Shown here in pieces: positions 28,364 through 37,457 of a DNA stretch of 64,000 nucleotides (positions are counted from its first letter, which is position 1; every line of letters starts with the position of its first letter). Below the pieces are notes generated by a model. The model was not told the DNA's origin. It did no database searches and saw only the letters and a program-made list of their open reading frames with translations. The DNA lies in the NCBI RefSeq assembly GCF_007748195.1, contig NZ_CP037920.1, positions 3,535,501 to 3,599,500 of the forward strand, given 5' to 3'. This DNA comes from Gimesia aquarii. Lineage in GTDB: Bacteria > Planctomycetota > Planctomycetia > Planctomycetales > Planctomycetaceae. Made by a program: the position numbers and the translations under genes.

Positions 28364-28416
28364 GACACCACTAATTGATAGCAGGTAATCCTTCTACCAG
28401 ATGAGGGGAAGCGAAA

Positions 28417-30045
28417 ATGAAATCTATGGATAAATCAAATCATCTCATTCAACAGGTGCAACGACGTCTGGCCATCGCGAGTTGGGGGCGTAGCCTGTTT
28501 ATTGCATTCGTTTGTTCTTTAGCTGCTTACCTAGCAGTCTTGTTGTATAGTCGTTTTTCGGGCTATCTCAGAGACTGGTTTACTTTGGAATCGGCTGGCG
28601 TTGTCTTAATTGCAACATTCTTGTTGGCTTGTCTGATCTATCGCAAACCAGGCAAAGAGCAAGCCGCACGGCTCATTGATCAAAGCCAGGGAACAAAAGA
28701 CCTGTTTTTAACCATGACAATGTTGGAAAGTGCAGTCGGCAACTACAAGCCGCTGGTTGTGAAGGACGCAGAACAGAAAGCGGGAAAAATCAGGCCTGCT
28801 CAGATTGTCAGTTTTGAGTGGGGCAAGCGTTTAGCCGTTTCATGCGCGGGAGCCGTTTGTCTGTTTTTAGTATTACAATATGCTCCGCAGTTTGATCCAT
28901 TTGGCAAAGTTGAAGCTGCCGAGGTTGAAAAAGAAAAAGTAAAAGAATTCGAAAGTTCTAAAAAAGCAACCAAAGCCAGAATGGCTGACTTAAAGAATAA
29001 AGATAACGGAGAAGGGGACGAAGAGTCTAAAGATGTCAAAATGGCTGTGGAAAATTTGAAATCCGATTTTCGAAAAATGAAGCCTGGGAAAAAACAACAG
29101 AATTCGAAGACTCTCGCCGGGCATCAGAAATCTCTGGGTGGTAAGTGGCGGAAGATTGCTGAAGAGAAAATGAAAGGTCTGATGATGAAAAGCGATCAGG
29201 CTCAGAAATTTGGGGGAATGTCGAAAAATGAAGGCATGAAGAAGTGGAATAAGGAACTACAGGAAGGTTCGACGCAATCTCTCACAAAAGAAATGGATGA
29301 ATTAAAAGAACAGCTGAAGCGATTGATGAAAGAGACTGATCCTGTGAAACGGGAGCAGTTAAAAAACGAAATCCAGAAAAAACTAAAAGAAATGGAATCA
29401 TTCGCACGCGAACAAACAAACTCCAAAGCGATGGCCGCGGCATTGAAACGCGCTATGAAACAAATGCAAATGGCACAATCCAAAGGAATGAATCCAGATG
29501 AAGCATTCAAAGAAGCAATGCAATCTATGGATCTGGCCAAAATGGAACTGAAAGAAATCGCACAGTCTGCCAAAGATATGAAAAAGCTCGAAGAAGCACT
29601 GAAAGTGTTACAAATGGCCAAAAAGGCAAATGATAAATCTGGTCTGGATGGGGAAGCATGTGAAAACTGCATGAGTCTTGAAGATTATGAAGAACTGTAC
29701 GCAGAGATGATGGGAGAAATGGCGGGCGAAGGAGAAGGAACCGGTGGGGAAGGCCAGGGAGGCGGAGCCAAAGTTGATGAAGATGATACTGGCGACAAGG
29801 GATTCAAAACTGAAAAATCGAAATCGGCGATCACCGCTGGTAAAGTTCTGCTCTCATTCAAAACTAAGGGGCTCAGCGACCGGGGAGAGGCCAAAAAGAG
29901 CTATAACAAATTGATGACCGATCTCAAACAGGGCATGAGTGAAGCAATCATACAGGAGCAGATTCCCCCTGGTTATCATGAAGGAATCAAAAAATACTTC
30001 AATTCACTTGAGAAACAACCTAAAGAAACAACATCCAAGAAATGA
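28417..30045 (+). CDS. Membrane-anchored, lysine/methionine-rich coiled-coil protein
   Basis: 542 residues with two predicted helices near the N-terminus (SLFIAFVCSLAAYLAVLLYS and ESAGVVLIATFLLACLIYRK) and a third around 145 (LAVSCAGAVCLFLVLQYAPQ). The rest is a long charged coiled coil rich in Lys, Met, Glu and Gln (MKSDQAQKFGGMSKNEGMKK), with a Gly/Glu linker MAGEGEGTGGEGQGGGAKVD. It resembles DUF4175-type planctomycete envelope proteins. ATG has GAGGGGAAG upstream. The next gene starts inside its stop (ATGA overlap at 30042), which ties it to the iron-transport-type genes. Confidence 0.7.
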   Translation: MKSMDKSNHLIQQVQRRLAIASWGRSLFIAFVCSLAAYLAVLLYSRFSGYLRDWFTLESAGVVLIATFLLACLIYRKPGKEQAARLIDQSQGTKDLFLTMTMLESAVGNYKPLVVKDAEQKAGKIRPAQIVSFEWGKRLAVSCAGAVCLFLVLQYAPQFDPFGKVEAAEVEKEKVKEFESSKKATKARMADLKNKDNGEGDEESKDVKMAVENLKSDFRKMKPGKKQQNSKTLAGHQKSLGGKWRKIAEEKMKGLMMKSDQAQKFGGMSKNEGMKKWNKELQEGSTQSLTKEMDELKEQLKRLMKETDPVKREQLKNEIQKKLKEMESFAREQTNSKAMAAALKRAMKQMQMAQSKGMNPDEAFKEAMQSMDLAKMELKEIAQSAKDMKKLEEALKVLQMAKKANDKSGLDGEACENCMSLEDYEELYAEMMGEMAGEGEGTGGEGQGGGAKVDEDDTGDKGFKTEKSKSAITAGKVLLSFKTKGLSDRGEAKKSYNKLMTDLKQGMSEAIIQEQIPPGYHEGIKKYFNSLEKQPKETTSKK

Positions 30046-31085
30046 ATCAAAATGTAGGGGGGCGACCTGTTTCCGGATGGCGCATTCTGGCAATCGTCGA
30101 GTTTGTTGCCATATTAGCAATCGGATTGGTCTTTTTTTATCGCCAGCAGGACGAGGCTCTCGTTGTCTATTGCGCGCATGATGCCGTATTCTCCGAAGAG
30201 ATACTCAATGCGTTTGAACAAAAAACCGGAATCAAAGTCGAACCGCGCTTCGATACCGAAGCGACAAAATCATTGGGCTTGACAAATTTAATCATCCGGG
30301 AGCAAGATCATCCGCGCTGTGATGTCTTCTGGAATAATCAAACATTGGGAACAGCAACTCTGAAAGAACAGGGACTACTGGAAACGTATCAAGGCGACGG
30401 GTATGAGAGAATTCCCGCAAAGTTTAAAGACCCTGATGGAACCTGGACAGGCTTTGCCGCACGATTGCGAGTGTATATTACCAACACTGAAAAGCTGACA
30501 GCGACCAGGGAGAGCATCGAACAGAAACTCTCTGGCCCGCTAAATGACGTTGCTATTGCCAAGCCACTCTATGGCACCACATTAACTCACTTTACTGTTC
30601 TCTGTGATGCGTGGGGATTGGATCGACTAAAAACGTGGTATCAGTCCCTTCAGGAAAGAAACATTCAGGAGACTTCGGGCAACGCTGGTGTAAAGAATCT
30701 GGTGGCCAGTGGTTCCTGTGCCTTGGGGTTTACCGATACAGATGATTTTTTTGTTGCCGTCGATGATGGAAAACCAGTCGCTTCATTACCGATTACGGTC
30801 GACGAACAAACAATTCTCATTCCCAATAGCGTGGCCATTATCAAAGGCACAAAAAGACGAAAGCAGGCGGAAACTTTAGTCAATTATCTTCTGTCTGAAG
30901 AAGTGGAACTCAAATTAGCTCAGTCACAATCACGCCAGATACCTTTAGGGGATGTGAATTGGGACCAAGTTCCGACTGAAGTCAGAGAATTACAACCTTA
31001 TGTTAAGAATGCCTATCCTTTAGCGAATTTAGTCAAAGAACGAGAAAAAGTATTGGCCTGGCTCGAATCGGAGTATTTGAAATGA
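30042..31085 (+). CDS. ABC transporter solute-binding protein, ferric-iron (FbpA) type
   Basis: 347 residues with an uncleaved-looking N-terminal anchor (ILAIVEFVAILAIGLVFFYR). The mature part follows the periplasmic-binding-protein class used by FbpA/AfuA: VVYCAHDAVFSEEILNAFEQ, KTGIKVEPRFDTEATKSLGL, CDVFWNNQTLGTATLKEQGL and the tail VNWDQVPTEVRELQPYVKNA. Iron is the likely ligand by family, but 2-aminoethylphosphonate binders share the fold. Its stop overlaps the permease start (ATGA), and an ATPase gene follows, giving a complete importer. Confidence 0.85.
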   Translation: MNQNVGGRPVSGWRILAIVEFVAILAIGLVFFYRQQDEALVVYCAHDAVFSEEILNAFEQKTGIKVEPRFDTEATKSLGLTNLIIREQDHPRCDVFWNNQTLGTATLKEQGLLETYQGDGYERIPAKFKDPDGTWTGFAARLRVYITNTEKLTATRESIEQKLSGPLNDVAIAKPLYGTTLTHFTVLCDAWGLDRLKTWYQSLQERNIQETSGNAGVKNLVASGSCALGFTDTDDFFVAVDDGKPVASLPITVDEQTILIPNSVAIIKGTKRRKQAETLVNYLLSEEVELKLAQSQSRQIPLGDVNWDQVPTEVRELQPYVKNAYPLANLVKEREKVLAWLESEYLK

Positions 31086-32557
31086 GCTTGGCCACAATAT
31101 GTGGCGTGACCGTGTTACGCAGTCTGGTGATTTCGATTCTAGCAGTCTTCGTCTCCAGGCATTTGTCAAAACTTGTTGAAGCGAGGCATTCAAAACGTTC
31201 GTTTTTGTTGTTTGCTTTAATATTGGCTCCCTTATTGGTGCCTGATTTGATTGTGGGTTATGTCTGGTCGTTGATGGTTTTAAAACTGTCACAGTATCCT
31301 TTTTTAATCGAGTTGGTGTATTCAAGTCTTGTGTTACTGAAAGTGGTTCCCGTGGGAATTATTTGCTTCTGTTTTGCGGCTCCACCTCTGGTGACTTCAG
31401 AGGCCGACTTCATCCGGAAATCGGTTCGGTCCGCCTCTGCTCAGATTTCGGGAATCGCTGCGCAATGGAGTTTCTTCTTCTGGAAAAATGTGTTACGTTC
31501 TTTTCCCATCTGGGCACTCCTGTTTCTGCTCGCCTTTCAAGAATTTGAAATGGCGTCTCTTATTTACCGGGATTCATGGACTGTATCGATCTTTGATGCA
31601 CAGGCAAGAGGCGTCCCTCTTCACGAAGCACTTTCCTTTCTGAAGGTTCCCCTCTGTGTTGAACTATTACTCGTTACCGGAGTCGCACTCTTATTAAGTC
31701 GAATGCAAAAACAACCGCAATTCAAGCAGCATTCCGATTTCAGAAGCAATTCGGTCTTTTCACAAATGAGTTCGTTAGTCTATTTGCTGATTGCATTTTT
31801 AGTGATCGTGCTCATTCCATTCAGCTTGACCGGGGGAGGTGGGCTGCGTGCGATCGGGAGTTTGTTCCGAAACCAATTGCAGTTGATGGGCATCCTGCAG
31901 GAGAGTGGTTGGGGGCTGCTGTATGGAATCACCGCTGGAATTGCAGCCTGGGGGCTTGCTTCATTTTTCTTTTCGGAAAATCGATCTCGTCAATTAAAAA
32001 TGCTCGGCTTGATATTCTGCCTGCCGGGGTTGTGTGGTTCACTGACATTGGCACTGGTAATGGCGTCACTCTTTTTATCAGACTATGGTCACTGGTTATA
32101 TGATACCCCAGTGCCACTTTTTATCACTCTCGTATTGTTTCTGTTTCCCAGAGCTGCGTTCTTGAAGTTGATATTTCGATCTCAATGGCAGCGCGAACCT
32201 CTCTTTTTAGCTCGTTTATTAAGTCACTCCCCAAATCAGAATCAGATGAAAAATGGAGGACGTTTACAATGGATTGTAAGTGGGCGGATGCAATATTGGG
32301 CGGTGGTGTTGCTCGCATTCTGGGCCTATTGGGATGTAACGATCAGCTCTATTCTGGCCCCCAATAATGCAATGACATCTTCTGTTCGATTATATAACTT
32401 AATGCATTATGGCCAGAATTCGATTCTGTCGGCGATGACCTTTCTGAGTTTTTGCATCCCTGTGTTAGCCAGTCTTTTACTGTTACCCGTTGTCAAAAAG
32501 CTGTGGATGCTTACTTTAGATCAAAAGCACGTCACTAAAACTGTGTCAACTTCATGA
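31082..32557 (+). CDS. ABC transporter permease, ferric-iron (FbpB) type
   Basis: 491 residues with about 10-12 membrane helices in two halves, like the double permeases FbpB/AfuB. The EAA-like loops are recognisable: RSASAQISGIAAQWSFFFWK (first half) and NGGRLQWIVSGRMQYWAVVL (second, weak). The conserved signals are looser than in proteobacterial iron permeases. Starts inside the stop of the binding protein and ends inside the start of the ATPase gene (ATGA at 32554), so all three are translationally coupled. Confidence 0.82.
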   Translation: MSLATICGVTVLRSLVISILAVFVSRHLSKLVEARHSKRSFLLFALILAPLLVPDLIVGYVWSLMVLKLSQYPFLIELVYSSLVLLKVVPVGIICFCFAAPPLVTSEADFIRKSVRSASAQISGIAAQWSFFFWKNVLRSFPIWALLFLLAFQEFEMASLIYRDSWTVSIFDAQARGVPLHEALSFLKVPLCVELLLVTGVALLLSRMQKQPQFKQHSDFRSNSVFSQMSSLVYLLIAFLVIVLIPFSLTGGGGLRAIGSLFRNQLQLMGILQESGWGLLYGITAGIAAWGLASFFFSENRSRQLKMLGLIFCLPGLCGSLTLALVMASLFLSDYGHWLYDTPVPLFITLVLFLFPRAAFLKLIFRSQWQREPLFLARLLSHSPNQNQMKNGGRLQWIVSGRMQYWAVVLLAFWAYWDVTISSILAPNNAMTSSVRLYNLMHYGQNSILSAMTFLSFCIPVLASLLLLPVVKKLWMLTLDQKHVTKTVSTS

Positions 32558-34413
32558 ATATGAGAACTCAACAATCTGAATCTTCTCTATGGTCGCTGAA
32601 GCAAGTCAGTCTTCGCGGGGGATCCGGCGACCGTTTAGTTGACGTAGATCTTGAGATCCCTCAAGGCATCACTGCCATTATGGGATATTCGGGAGCAGGA
32701 AAAACATCTTTGCTGAACCTGCTGGTTGAGTATGAGCGTCCCCATCAGGGAAGTGTAGCACGTAGCAACCACTGTTTTCCGTCTGACTCTGCGGTCGAAA
32801 CTTTTTGGGTGCCGCATTCATTGGGTTTATGGCCACAATATGATGTTCAAGAACATCTGGTGCTGGTTCATCCTGCCCCCGAGACACTTAATGAAACCGT
32901 AGAAGAATTATTGAATGCTTTTCGTCTGACATCAGTCAGGAAAAAATATCCGGGGCAACTCTCTCAAGGCGAAGCATCCCGTTTATCGGTGGCTCGAGCA
33001 TTGGCCAGTCAGGCGAAGGTATTGGTCATGGATGAACCTTTAGTGCACGTGGACCAGGCACATTGGCCTTTATATTGGGATGCCATTCGCCACTATTGTG
33101 AAAAAAATAAAACTTCGCTGGTATTTTCAACACACATGCCAGAGTTGGTATTAAAAGAAGCACAGCATGTTGTCTGTTTAGATGAAGGAGCCGTGGTCTA
33201 TGCGGGGGCAGTGCATGATCTTTATTATGCGCCCCCATCGTATCAAATCGGGATGTATCTAGGACCGGTGAATGATCTTTCTGATGTGAAGATACAGTCG
33301 GATCAAAATCAATCAGAAACGATCACACTCGTCCGTCCGGAACAGCTAACGCTGATAAAAGAGGAGTCCAGTGAATGGGAAGTCCGCCAGACGACATTCA
33401 GTGGCGCGCTTGAGAAAGTCGAAACGGTTCATCATCAAACTCAATCAAATCAAACCTTTTACCATCGACCTCCACGTGCAACGTTGAAACCGGGGGATCG
33501 CATATCGATTCATTTGTTACTGCTCCTTTTTTGTTTGTTGACTTGCTTTGGTTGTCATTCGGATTCTGCTCCCGAACTTTCGTTTCCAAAGATTGTTCAG
33601 TGGTCCCTTCCTTCTGAGGGAACCAAGGTTCCTGCGCCGCGCAGTGTGAATGTCGGACCGAAGGAAGAACTTTATGTACTTGATAACGCCGGACGTGTCT
33701 TAGTTTATAATCCTGAGAATGAACTTGTCAGGAAATGGATGATGCCTGACTATGATGTTGGCAAACCGGAGGGAATTTGCTTCTTGAAGAATGGTCAAAT
33801 CGCAGTCGCTGATACCCATTATCACCGGGTTGTGTTTTTTGATGATCAGGGAAACGTCCAAAAAATGCTGGGGGAACAGGGAGAAGGGCCTTCGCAATTT
33901 ATTTACCCGGTTTCCATTGTTCAAGACCCCTCTGGTAACATTTATGTCGGCGAATATGGAGGCAATGATCGAGTTCAGAAATTCTCAGAAGAGGGCGAGT
34001 TTCTGTTAGAATTTGGAGAACATGGGACTGAACCGGGGCAGTTTGAACGGGCTTCCGGGATGGTCTGGCATCAGGGAAAAATCTATGTGGCAGATGCCAG
34101 TAATAATTGCATACAGGTATTTTCAGATGAAGGTGCCTTTTTAGAAGTTTTAGGCACGAAAACTGGGGGAATTCCACTCTATTATCCATATGACATTGCC
34201 ATTGATCGTTCCAAAGAGGAATTTTACATCGTGGAGTATGGGGCAGGCCGTATTACAAAAACAGATTTAGAAGGCAGAGTTTTAGGCAGATTCGGGAAGA
34301 CAGGCAGTAAACAAGGCGAATTCGTCACTCCCTGGGGAGTTACAGTAAATTCAAAAGATCAGGTGTTCGTGGCTGACACTGGTAATCGTTTAATCGTAAA
34401 ATTAATACCATGA
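32554..34413 (+). CDS. ABC ATPase fused to a lipoprotein-like NHL beta-propeller
   Basis: 619 residues in one uninterrupted frame. Residues 1-240 are an ABC ATPase: Walker A GYSGAGKTS, signature LSQGEASR, Walker B VLVMDEPL, H-loop STHMPE. Residues 250-320 look like a TOBE domain (TITLVRPEQLTLIKEE, then ATLKPGDRISIHL). The last TOBE strand runs directly into a hydrophobic core HLLLLLFCLLTCFGC (320-334), like a lipoprotein signal with a lipobox Cys334. Residues 345-619 are six NHL repeats (for example GKIYVADASNNCIQVFSDEG). It therefore spans cytosol and periplasm, or the propeller is made separately from a non-ATG start or freed by processing. Iron-type importer ATPases normally end after TOBE. 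Confidence 0.85.
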   Translation: MNMRTQQSESSLWSLKQVSLRGGSGDRLVDVDLEIPQGITAIMGYSGAGKTSLLNLLVEYERPHQGSVARSNHCFPSDSAVETFWVPHSLGLWPQYDVQEHLVLVHPAPETLNETVEELLNAFRLTSVRKKYPGQLSQGEASRLSVARALASQAKVLVMDEPLVHVDQAHWPLYWDAIRHYCEKNKTSLVFSTHMPELVLKEAQHVVCLDEGAVVYAGAVHDLYYAPPSYQIGMYLGPVNDLSDVKIQSDQNQSETITLVRPEQLTLIKEESSEWEVRQTTFSGALEKVETVHHQTQSNQTFYHRPPRATLKPGDRISIHLLLLLFCLLTCFGCHSDSAPELSFPKIVQWSLPSEGTKVPAPRSVNVGPKEELYVLDNAGRVLVYNPENELVRKWMMPDYDVGKPEGICFLKNGQIAVADTHYHRVVFFDDQGNVQKMLGEQGEGPSQFIYPVSIVQDPSGNIYVGEYGGNDRVQKFSEEGEFLLEFGEHGTEPGQFERASGMVWHQGKIYVADASNNCIQVFSDEGAFLEVLGTKTGGIPLYYPYDIAIDRSKEEFYIVEYGAGRITKTDLEGRVLGRFGKTGSKQGEFVTPWGVTVNSKDQVFVADTGNRLIVKLIP

Positions 34414-37400
34414 AGATCAAAGAACTCTATCATCAATTGGTTCCGAAACCACGTATCGCCTTGACTTGGATGCGTGCGCTACCTTTGATCTTTTTTCTTC
34501 TCTTTTATGCCGCTCTTTGCATCAGCCTCGAATTGTCTGGTGTTTTATTATTTGCCCGACCCTGGGCCTTTGGTCTGATTCTGTTTTCGATCTGGATCTG
34601 GTGGCTTTCGGTCGCCGGTTATGGAGGCTTGAGTAAAGGCAGAGCGCTGGCTGCTCTAGTCTCTCGGCTATTAATGTTGGGCCTCTTTGTGATGCTGATC
34701 GCCGAACCTCGCTCGGTCCGTGTGCGGGATGTCATCTCTGTCGTCTATGCCGTTGATCTTTCTGATTCAATTGGTGAATCATCGGTGGATTCTGCTTTAG
34801 AATTTGTCACAAAGACAGTTACTGAAAAACCACAGACCGATGAAGCAGGTTTAGTTGTATTCGGGCGCAATTCTGCCGTGGAGCTTCCACCTCGTGTCTC
34901 TTTTCCGTTTGAAGCATTGAATTCGCGAATTGACCGCGACGCGACAAATTTGCAGCAGACGCTTTCCTTGGCAGCAGCGATGTTACCCGAAGAAAATCGC
35001 GGACGTATCGTTTTAATCAGCGATGGAACGGAAACCGAAGGTTCCATCTCACAAATCCTGGATGAGCTGAAGTCGCGCGGCGTTGCCGTTGATGTCCTTC
35101 CCATCCAGTATGAATACGATAAAGAAGTCTGGCTCGAAAACCTGGAATTGCCACGGTTTGTTAAACTGGGTGAGAATTATGAAGCCGCTGTTGTACTGTC
35201 TTCTTTGAAAGATGGCACCGGCAAGCTCGTGCTTCGTGAAAATGGCGAGCCGATATATGAAGAGGATGTGACTTTCAAGGCAGGTAAGAATCGTTTTGTT
35301 GTTCCCATTTATTTACGGTCTGCCGGCTACTACGAATATTCGGCAACGATTGAAACAAAACGCGATGAAGATCAGATTCGCGAAAACAACACAGTGATCA
35401 ACTACCTCTTTGTAGAAGGAGAAGGCAAGGTTCTGGTTGTGACGGATCCCGCTGGAGATGATCGCGACTGGGAACCTTTAGTCAAAGCGATTCGTGAAGG
35501 TGAACGCAATGTAGAGACCATTTCCGCCTATGAATTTCCCGGTGATTCATTGTCGCTAATGCCCTACGATGCGATTCTGTTCGTCAATGTCCCCGCCGAT
35601 GCCTTTAATGTGATTCAATTAAAGGCCGTGCATGATTCCATCTTCAATCAGGGAATCGGATTCATGATGGTGGGGGGTGAGAATAGTTATGGTCCGGGGG
35701 GATATCATCGTACGGTCATCGAAGATGCACTCCCTGTGACGATGGACATCACAAAAAAGAAAGTGCTTCCCAAAGGCGCCCTTGCCATCATCTTACATAC
35801 CTGTGAATTCCCGGAAGGGAATACCTGGGGAAAACGGATCACAAAACAGGCCATTAAAGTGCTGGGAGCACAAGATGAAGTCGGCGTGTTAGTCTATGAT
35901 TACATGAATGGCGAAAAGTGGCTCTTTGAACTGATGCCCGCCGGTGACTACGAAAAAATGGTGCCCAAAATCAATGGCGCCCAAATTGGCGACATGCCGA
36001 GCTTTGTAAACACCATGGAGTTAGGGTTGGAAGGGCTCATCAAAAGTGATGCGGCCACAAAGCACATGATTATTATTTCAGATGGCGATCCACAACCACC
36101 CTCTCCCAAGTTAATCGGCCGATTTATCAAAAATAAAGTCAGCGTCTCAATGGTGGCGGTCTTTCCGCATGGAGGCCGTGATATCTCAACCATGCGAGGA
36201 ATCGCAAGTGCGACAGGGGGGCGATATTACTTTCCTTCAGATCCCAATCAACTGCCGTCGATATTCATCAAAGAATCAAAAACGCTGAAACGGAGTATGA
36301 TTCAAAACGAAACCATTACACCTGAAGTCGGAATGATCTCCTCCGTTCTCAAAGGAATTGAAGCAATTCCACCTCTGCACGGTTATGTGTTAACAACAAT
36401 CAAACCCAGGGCAGAAGGTGTTTTAAACGCACCCGAGAAGAAAGAAGCAGAAGGTGATATTGATCCCGTCCTGGCGTTCTGGCGTTATGGACTTGGTACA
36501 ACCGCCGCATTCACTTCTGATTTATCTCCGAACTGGGGAGCGGATTGGGTGAATTGGGATCACTACAGTGCGTTTATTAAGCAGTTAATGATAAAAATCT
36601 CGCGTGTTCAAAAACAAGCACATCTCAAGATGTGGAGTCACACCAATGGGAACAATGCGACAATCATGGTCGAAGATTTTCATCCTGAAGAATCGTTTTT
36701 GAATGTGGCGGCTCGCATTTCAGGTCCTCATGATAAAAAAGAAACGGTTGTGCTTAAGCAGGTCAGCCCTCGCCGGTATCAGGCTTCGGTTCCTCTTTGG
36801 GGGAAAGGCCGCTATCAAGTGATGGCGATTGGAAAATCAGGAGACCGTGAAGACCACGCCAATGGTGGTTTTATCGTTCCCTATTCTCCGGAATTTCTGC
36901 GGTTTCGTTCGAATCCCATTGTTTTAGAAGAAATTGCAGAAAAGACAGGCGGGCAAAGGCTGAACCCAGACAAGGCAGCAGAAGTGATCTATGGACGTCG
37001 CGCGCCCAAACAAAGTTCCAATCCTATATTCGACTGGTTTCTGATTGCCCTGGCCATATTAGTGCCATTGGATGTAGGCATCAGACGCGTTCAACTCGAT
37101 TGGTATGTGATCAAAAGCTGGTTTGGGTTCGGTTCAGAACAAAAAGCAAGTACGGTAACGATGGGAGCGTTACTGCAACGGAAGCAAGGCGTTGTTGAAG
37201 AATTAGATTTACGCAAAGGGAAGACATCGGGTGCAGCGAAACAGACGACTTCTCAATCCACGATTTCCCAATTGCAAGCACAAAAGCAAAAATCAACCAG
37301 ACCAAATTCTAAAGCAGAAAATACCCAAAAGAAAAAGACCGACAAGACAACAAATCCTCCAGGTACCAAAACGGCAACCGATTCTGGTGATAATGCAACC

Positions 37401-37457
37401 ACAACCGGACGATTACTGGATCTCAAACGAAGACGACAATCGGAAGACGAAAAATAA
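34410..37457 (+). CDS. Membrane protein with two vWA domains and a GATase-like domain
   Basis: 1015 residues. N-terminal helices ALPLIFFLLFYAALCISLEL and WAFGLILFSIWIWWLSVAGY. First vWA at about 110-245, with MIDAS motif DLSDSIGES (VVYAVDLSDS). Class I glutamine-amidotransferase-like fold at about 335-450 (GFMMVGGENSYGPGGYHR), without an evident catalytic Cys. A second vWA-like domain runs at about 455-625 (ends HMIIISDGDPQPPSPKLIGR). A further helix (WFLIALAILVPLDVGIRRV) near 873 is followed by a Lys/Thr/Gln-rich tail. Starts in the stop of the ABC-NHL gene (ATGA). MoxR lies just downstream, its usual AAA+ partner. Confidence 0.88.
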   Translation: MKIKELYHQLVPKPRIALTWMRALPLIFFLLFYAALCISLELSGVLLFARPWAFGLILFSIWIWWLSVAGYGGLSKGRALAALVSRLLMLGLFVMLIAEPRSVRVRDVISVVYAVDLSDSIGESSVDSALEFVTKTVTEKPQTDEAGLVVFGRNSAVELPPRVSFPFEALNSRIDRDATNLQQTLSLAAAMLPEENRGRIVLISDGTETEGSISQILDELKSRGVAVDVLPIQYEYDKEVWLENLELPRFVKLGENYEAAVVLSSLKDGTGKLVLRENGEPIYEEDVTFKAGKNRFVVPIYLRSAGYYEYSATIETKRDEDQIRENNTVINYLFVEGEGKVLVVTDPAGDDRDWEPLVKAIREGERNVETISAYEFPGDSLSLMPYDAILFVNVPADAFNVIQLKAVHDSIFNQGIGFMMVGGENSYGPGGYHRTVIEDALPVTMDITKKKVLPKGALAIILHTCEFPEGNTWGKRITKQAIKVLGAQDEVGVLVYDYMNGEKWLFELMPAGDYEKMVPKINGAQIGDMPSFVNTMELGLEGLIKSDAATKHMIIISDGDPQPPSPKLIGRFIKNKVSVSMVAVFPHGGRDISTMRGIASATGGRYYFPSDPNQLPSIFIKESKTLKRSMIQNETITPEVGMISSVLKGIEAIPPLHGYVLTTIKPRAEGVLNAPEKKEAEGDIDPVLAFWRYGLGTTAAFTSDLSPNWGADWVNWDHYSAFIKQLMIKISRVQKQAHLKMWSHTNGNNATIMVEDFHPEESFLNVAARISGPHDKKETVVLKQVSPRRYQASVPLWGKGRYQVMAIGKSGDREDHANGGFIVPYSPEFLRFRSNPIVLEEIAEKTGGQRLNPDKAAEVIYGRRAPKQSSNPIFDWFLIALAILVPLDVGIRRVQLDWYVIKSWFGFGSEQKASTVTMGALLQRKQGVVEELDLRKGKTSGAAKQTTSQSTISQLQAQKQKSTRPNSKAENTQKKKTDKTTNPPGTKTATDSGDNATTTGRLLDLKRRRQSEDEK

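Follow-up and report, generated by a model that had tools for sequence, protein, structure and literature searches.

A single gene of the planctomycete Gimesia aquarii encodes an ABC ATPase, an internal lipoprotein-like signal and an NHL beta-propeller in one continuous frame. On balance, and by a modest degree, we favor the view that this is a natural polyprotein gene, the product of which would be processed by Lgt and LspA at Cys334 of an internal type II signal. The gene is located in the window analyzed here, a 64,000-nucleotide stretch of contig NZ_CP037920.1 to which all coordinates refer.

Results

Organization of the fused gene

The gene (32554–34413, + strand) is a single ATG-initiated frame of 619 amino acids with zero stops. 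The fusion is real, as the first-pass annotation had it in proposing one uninterrupted frame from ATPase to propeller. With no other stop in the ATPase, every full ATPase chain must run on into the signal. The ABC ATPase domain (residues 12–235; 32587–33258, +) was assigned from Pfam and conserved residues, with the ABC_tran match covering residues 30–163 (1.9e-22). Walker A (GYSGAGKTS, residues 44–52; 32683–32709, +), the ABC signature (LSQGE, residues 136–140; 32959–32973, +), Walker B with the catalytic Glu, and the H-loop are all present. Conservation among the fused proteins is close to complete: K50, S137, G139 and H194 are each found in 78/79, and D160 and E161 in 79/79. These motifs, and a TOBE-like C-terminal region, are shared with importer ATPases of the CUT1/FbpC/PotA type (1z47, 2it1, 3fvq, MalK, PotA). 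Unlike these, the window protein has a signal and a propeller after its C-terminal ATPase region, and the Q-loop position is occupied by His88 (32815–32817, +) where Gln is expected; among the 71 fused proteins in which the motif could be read, 65 have a residue other than Gln (2/73 were unreadable).

The TOBE-like region (residues 240–316; 33271–33501, +) was assigned from TOBE_2 in relatives. The TOBE domain of the earlier description is only partly borne out, since the window protein itself has no Pfam match here and TOBE_2 matches 7 of 20 fused relatives (E<=0.1). That this end runs straight into the signal was supported: residues 313–320 (33490–33513, +), with R316 and H320, belong both to the TOBE-like end and to the n-region of the signal. 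The hydrophobic h-region follows (residues 321–333, ending in G333; 33514–33552, +) and leads to the lipobox cysteine, Cys334 (33553–33555, +), which is identical in 79/79 fused proteins. The join is indeed a hydrophobic core ending at this residue. The NHL beta-propeller occupies residues 353–619 (33610–34410, +). In Pfam, this half matches NHL (4e-27) and, more weakly, a '6-bladed beta-propeller' model. The six NHL repeats proposed at first are compatible with this fold, yet none of the models gave a count of six, and Pfam gives four stretches in the window protein (E<=0.1). By sequence, its nearest solved structures are the NHL propellers of TRIM2 (the best, 1.8e-39) and TRIM71, and the PknD propeller (1rwi) is also among the solved relatives. 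Both halves are under purifying selection within the genus (pN/pS 0.32 for the ATPase and 0.16 for NHL).

The neighboring genes include those of a putative importer. An extracellular solute-binding protein (30042–31085, +; Pfam, SBP_bac_8/11 families), with weak similarity to 2-aminoethylphosphonate binding proteins, is followed by a putative permease with 11 hydrophobic segments (31082–32557, +), the gene of which shares its last 4 nt with the fused gene; six of six members of this permease family gave no Pfam match. Downstream, the gene of a vWA/GATase1-like membrane protein (vWA1; 34410–37457, +) shares its first 4 nt with the end of the fused gene. A permease-ATPase-NHL fusion in genome G023, a 1155-aa open frame, was considered and rejected, the permease match being in another frame.

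A lipoprotein-like signal inside the chain

The signal is not N-terminal but follows more than 310 ATPase residues. The charged residue closest to the hydrophobic run on its N-terminal side is R316, 17 residues ahead of Cys334. Across 73 fused proteins, the last charge before the hydrophobic run is R or K without exception and lies 12–18 residues from the Cys (median 13). The Cys is preceded by G in 71 of these and by S in the other 2, as counted by a finder restricted to G, A, S, T or N at this position. Cys334 is the sole invariant Cys column when the fused proteins are compared with the window protein (66/79 for the next best). A simple scan of the 38 open frames of at least 200 aa in the window, for a hydrophobic run with K/R ahead of it and G/A/S-Cys behind it, gave two matches: this segment and one at residue 75 of frame 28405–30042. 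Judged from the sequence, then, the segment has the n-region charge, the h-region and the small residue before Cys of a putative type II signal, and the genome holds one LspA gene and one Lgt gene. The predicted topology is a cytosolic ATPase and an exported propeller; a charge bias in 67/73 fused proteins, in which net charge is higher before the segment than after it, fits this expectation.

The main alternative is that the same segment is a signal anchor that is never cleaved, leaving a bitopic protein in which the propeller stays on the ATPase as a periplasmic sensor or docking arm. We consider this rather unlikely, if well worth weighing. A precedent for the layout is PknD of Mycobacterium tuberculosis, described in PMC3140968 and PMC1262709 as a cytosolic kinase with one transmembrane segment and an NHL propeller. 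The likeness consists of a cytosolic ATP-using domain, a single membrane segment and an extracytoplasmic NHL propeller; PknD differs in being a kinase, while the family studied here has an ABC ATPase, an invariant lipobox-like Cys and split genes in relatives. The 19-residue stretch 317–335 scores 2.13, hydrophobic enough for a transmembrane segment. Over 11 residues, mean Kyte-Doolittle values are 2.82 for fused segments versus 2.30 and 2.27 for separate signals, and this greater hydrophobicity would suit an anchor and speaks against cleavage. So does the weak lipobox of the window protein, which has Cys at -3 and does not fit a PS51257-like lipobox pattern. The fused proteins are looser at this position: the pattern is found in 44/73 of them (5/16 in the window's genus) versus 31/38 split and 9/10 ATPase-less propellers (40/48 for the latter two together). 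Conversely, a plain anchor has no need of a Cys that is never replaced, and the uncharged run is short for an anchor (15 residues or fewer in 46/73) and resembles that of separate lipoproteins, the medians of which are 14 and 16.5. The distribution of the propeller, below, also bears against permanent attachment.

The first-pass annotation had also raised an internal non-ATG start for the propeller. In a reading of this kind, the propeller would be made from its own start inside the ATPase C-terminus, besides the fusion. We regard such internal initiation as improbable. There is a TTG at 33514 and a purine-rich GGGGGA near the junction, and 66/73 fused genes have an in-frame ATG, GTG or TTG between codons -26 and -8 relative to the Cys. 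These codons total 169, which is 1.5 sd above synonymous shuffles (155.3, sd 9.3); shuffling, however, leaves such a codon in 64.4 genes (sd 2.5), so that there is no clear excess. Seven of the 73 genes lack any candidate codon, and no single position is conserved. Synonymous divergence at the junction (0.61–0.78 over residues 309–335) is near the mean of 0.694 (sd 0.106). It falls to 0.30 at residues 607–615, just before the vWA1 start, although this dip belongs to a wider one from residue 589 and is not a clean control. Shine-Dalgarno scoring was uninformative because the motif occurs in just 1 of the 48 propeller genes that are split or ATPase-less and must have starts of their own. Even with an internal start, the ATPase would still be produced solely as a fusion.

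Fused and split loci

We searched 170 genomes, of which 128 matched and 42 had no match at 1e-38, the latter including one from the window's genus that is 74% complete (G015). Five of the 128 were left unclassified (G112, and G024, G033, G090 and G106 with matches at or near a contig end). The 123 classified loci of the family comprise 74 fused genes, 38 pairs of adjacent separate genes, 10 propeller genes without an ATPase upstream and one locus set aside (L110) as probably frameshifted in its NHL half. One of the 74 (L143), its contig cut in the ATPase half, was counted as fused rather than as ATPase-less and is outside the counts based on 73 or 79 proteins. The fused loci span 26 genera of the family and include single-contig genomes; outside the class, the fusion is found in four genomes, and also in two MAGs titled Verrucomicrobia. 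Relatives consistently encoding the two parts as separate genes, the finding that the first-pass annotation had set against its own reading, were not encountered.

Could the fusion be an artefact of annotation or sequencing, or a read-through that is recent and neutral? Defects do occur: an in-frame TAA interrupts the ATPase half in one fused MAG (G036), the match in G114 crosses two TGA, and L110 is apparently frameshifted. The breadth of the 74 loci and the purifying selection on both halves make this explanation very improbable, and the continuous junction in 74/123 classified loci excludes sequencing error as a general explanation.

The split class was defined by an ABC ATPase scoring above 60 bits upstream and nothing more. 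In 27/38, the alignment of this ATPase to the window protein extends to residue 300 or beyond, which places the end of many separate ATPases close to the start of the h-region in fused proteins. In four split loci (L071, L072, L077 and L106), the ATPase match stops at residues 215–224, so the TOBE-like end may be missing or the ATPase may be a different one. Flanks were short in two of the ten loci without an upstream ATPase (L035 and L045). The separate planctomycete NHL lipoprotein genes belong to the same propeller family, have a similar signal and often lie near vWA/MoxR/DUF58 genes, with vWA1 downstream in many loci, as in the window. They differ in having their own start, an N-terminal signal and no joined ATPase. 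Other families of the class contributed six loci in which the propeller gene is present with no relatives of the ABC genes within 11–12 kb, and a vWA1 relative is nearby in four of these; this persistence argues against the propeller being a fixed arm of the ATPase.

On the best propeller trees, the fused state changes at least nine times. These trees were built by a quick method and contain 42 and 46 forks with weak support; well-supported branches force just 3–4 of the nine changes. With the outgroup left open, nine changes are required whether the root is fused or unfused; with the outgroup coded as unfused, nine are required for an unfused and 11 for a fused root. Long branches prevented placement of the out-of-class sequences. 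Such repeated swapping of fused and split forms counts against the uncleaved bitopic protein and is what one would expect were the two arrangements rendered equivalent by processing. We also considered whether fusion is linked to loss of the Q-loop Gln, as Gln is present in 6/71 readable fused versus 30/38 split proteins. This link was rejected in spite of these strong raw counts, since the pattern follows clades; a comparison of independent pairs (four pairs on starred branches) was not significant (median p 1).

Discussion

The invariance of Cys334 together with the repeated switching of states leads us to favor processing at this residue, one of the outcomes that the first-pass annotation had foreseen. 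In the polyprotein model, one ribosome would make the ABC ATPase, its TOBE-like end, the internal type II signal and the NHL propeller as one chain. The ATPase part would fold in the cytosol, and the short hydrophobic run, with R/K ahead of it, would insert with its N-terminal side inside and its C-terminal side outside, such that the propeller is exported. Lgt would then acylate Cys334, and LspA would cleave just before it. One product would be an ATPase, probably serving the importer of the solute-binding protein and permease encoded upstream; cleavage would leave a short hydrophobic tail at its C-terminus, which is a point against this model. The other would be a membrane-tethered periplasmic NHL lipoprotein. 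In effect, these products would equal those of the split genes of relatives.

A comparable arrangement is the cytochrome b/c1 polyprotein of Bradyrhizobium, fbcH, in which an internal export signal allows one chain to be cut into two proteins. Both are single genes with an internal export signal for two proteins; in fbcH, the N-terminal part is polytopic and the cut is made by signal peptidase I, whereas the gene described here has a soluble ABC ATPase and a type II signal. No description of fbcH was found in the available part of PMC6256036, and in our literature search we recognized no paper on it, on the present fusion or on a similar LspA-cut polyprotein.

An internal lipoprotein signal behind a soluble domain is easily overlooked by methods that search the beginning of a protein, and such a chain may be mistaken as a whole for a cytosolic ATP-binding protein. 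Without cleavage, an importer ATPase would be tied directly to a periplasmic propeller, which might act as a sensor or docking arm. With cleavage, LspA would have a role in polyprotein processing, and gene fusions through the lipobox could be maintained, since processing would reverse them. In its widest form, which we put forward tentatively as a nearly balanced judgement, the general lipoprotein pathway of Lgt and LspA would serve as a polyprotein-cutting step that yields an ABC ATPase in the cytosol and a lipoprotein in the periplasm, in a 1:1 ratio; with fused and split genes equivalent after processing, lineages of Planctomycetota may have switched between the one-gene and two-gene states on many occasions.

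Results

The gene at 32554-34413 starts with ATG and runs for 619 codons in a single uninterrupted frame, bearing out the continuous ATPase-NHL frame of the first-pass annotation, and it shares 4 nt with the preceding gene and 4 nt with the following one. In the product, Pfam places ABC_tran at residues 30-163 (1.9e-22) and NHL repeats in the C-terminal part (4e-27), where a 6-bladed propeller model also matches; by sequence, the nearest solved structures to this part are the NHL propellers of TRIM2 and TRIM71. ATPase and propeller are bridged by GDRISIH-LLLLLFCLLTCFG-C334-HSDSAPEL. Purifying selection acts on both halves (pN/pS 0.32 for the ATPase and 0.16 for NHL in 16 genomes of the genus). 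The TOBE domain of the same annotation fared less well: the window protein has no TOBE match and TOBE_2 is found in 7/20 fused relatives, so that a predicted TOBE-like end of the ATPase is weakly supported. Catalytic residues are retained in the ATPase. Alignment with 2it1 places His88 (32815-32817) at the Q-loop position, where Gln is expected. Among fused proteins with a readable motif the residue is other than Gln in 65 of 71, as against 8 of 38 at split loci, where ATPase and propeller are adjacent separate genes; Gln is thus rare in the former (6/71) and common in the latter (30/38). This association of fusion with Gln loss tracks clades and has no significance on independent pairs.

The cluster encodes, in order, an EF-hand protein, a weakly DUF4175-like protein, a solute-binding protein, a putative permease, the fused protein, a large vWA/GATase1-like protein, MoxR, DUF58, and a BatA-like protein, the names EF-hand, MoxR, DUF58, and BatA being assigned by reading the sequences. 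The putative permease (31082-32557) has 11 hydrophobic segments, and neither the window protein nor the five relatives tried with it gave a Pfam match at E<=0.1. A YNLMHYG-like motif recurs in the family. With a Q-loop lacking Gln and a permease lacking a Pfam match, the importer is unusual. The solute-binding protein (30042-31085) bears a weak resemblance to 2-aminoethylphosphonate binding proteins. Its residues 15-33 form a long hydrophobic segment in which no lipobox was seen on inspection; the protein may therefore be membrane-anchored instead of released. Downstream, the product of 34410-37457 is a membrane protein of 1015 aa that combines vWA and GATase1-like domains. Much of this order is found again in genomes outside the class. 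In other families of the class, the 11-12 kb examined at each of six loci contain the NHL gene but no relative of the ABC genes; four of these loci have a relative of the vWA/GATase1-like protein close to the NHL gene.

A search of 170 family genomes gave matches in 128 at 1e-38. By rule, 123 loci were classified as 73 fused, 39 split, and 11 without the ATPase; after correction, which excluded one locus, these became 74, 38, and 10, and relatives compared for one gene or two are accordingly not consistently split. Fused loci spread over 26 genera of the family, and in the window's genus 16/17 genomes have a match, fused in all 16. In a phylum sample of 392 genomes, 29 matched at 1e-60, five of them from outside the class: the gene is fused in four of these, and the fifth has ATPase and propeller as neighbouring separate genes. 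Two MAGs titled Verrucomicrobia (L154, L156), which may be mislabelled bins or reflect transfer, have the fused gene and the permease. On quick trees built from the NHL part, with signal and ATPase excluded, the fused state requires at least nine changes, of which well-supported branches force 4 and 3. With the outgroup left open, nine changes follow from either a fused or an unfused root; with the outgroup coded unfused, an unfused root needs nine and a fused root 11. In one MAG (G036), an in-frame TAA lies within the ATPase half of the fused gene (L049 4210-4212). Contigs of two others, G024 (L046 3592) and G033 (L050 1), both stop at (Y/F)HR codons just before the junction, which may be chance or an assembly break.

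No stop precedes the propeller, so full ATPase chains always continue into the signal. The internal propeller start suggested earlier, which would be additional, is not supported by the sequences: ATG, GTG, or TTG occurs near the signal in 66/73 fused genes, compared with 64.4 (sd 2.5) in synonymous shuffles, and is absent from 7/73; such codons total 169, compared with 155.3 (sd 9.3). Across 16 genus genomes, synonymous divergence at the junction (nine-codon windows, residues 309-335) is 0.61 to 0.78, close to the gene-wide mean of 0.694 (sd 0.106). It drops to 0.30 at residues 607-615, immediately ahead of the next gene's start, but since low values also occur at 10-24, 535-543, and over a wider stretch from residue 589, a dip need not mark a start, which leaves this control less than clean. 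The unusually low divergence at residues 589-615 (34318-34398) extends past the overlap with the next start.

The junction was compared in 79 fused proteins (73 from the family, four from outside the class, and the two MAGs). Cys334 is identical in 79/79, the second-best Cys column of the window protein being C208 with 66/79. In the family, the preceding residue is G in 71/73 and S in 2/73, the finder being restricted to G, A, S, T, or N at this position. In 73/73 an R or K provides the last charge ahead of the hydrophobic run, with 12-18 intervening residues (median 13) before the Cys; the window protein has R316 in this role, 17 residues ahead of Cys334 and with H320 between. The uncharged run is similar at split (median 14) and ATPase-less loci (16.5), and 67/73 fused proteins obey the positive-inside rule. 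At split loci the ATPase alignment extends to residue 300 or further in 27/38, and several split ATPases stop where the fused hydrophobic run starts (...GDHVWLAVSD* in G026; ...GQRVRIKVLS* in G078). Fusion therefore appears to join the TOBE-like end to the h-region, and basic residues of that end would double as the n-region.

Discussion

Cleavage of a polyprotein at an internal signal has a precedent, e.g. in the product of the cytochrome gene fbcH. The layout of a cytosolic enzyme with an NHL propeller is also known: two papers describe PknD, a receptor kinase of Mycobacterium tuberculosis, as a kinase, a membrane segment, and an extracellular NHL propeller (PMC1262709, PMC3140968). In the window protein, the enzyme is instead an ABC ATPase. 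What is apparently new is the fusion of an ABC ATPase with a lipoprotein at a lipobox whose Cys is invariant, family-wide and beyond the class, which was recognised in no literature searched (few subscription papers were covered).

The main rival to processing at this Cys is an uncleaved, PknD-like bitopic protein. It would accommodate the greater hydrophobicity of fused segments (2.82, against 2.30 for split and 2.27 for ATPase-less signals) and a lipobox that is loose at -3, a PS51257-like pattern being matched by 5/16 proteins in the genus and 44/73 fused proteins, compared with 31/38 split and 9/10 ATPase-less ones. An invariant Cys, a short run resembling that of separately encoded lipoproteins, and repeated switching between fused and split genes speak against it, and for these reasons we favour a polyprotein processed by Lgt and LspA, the enzymes of the lipoprotein pathway, for each of which the genome has one gene. 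Lgt and LspA would act at the junction; the ATPase part, ending in a short hydrophobic tail, would remain inside, and the propeller would become a lipoprotein on the outside.
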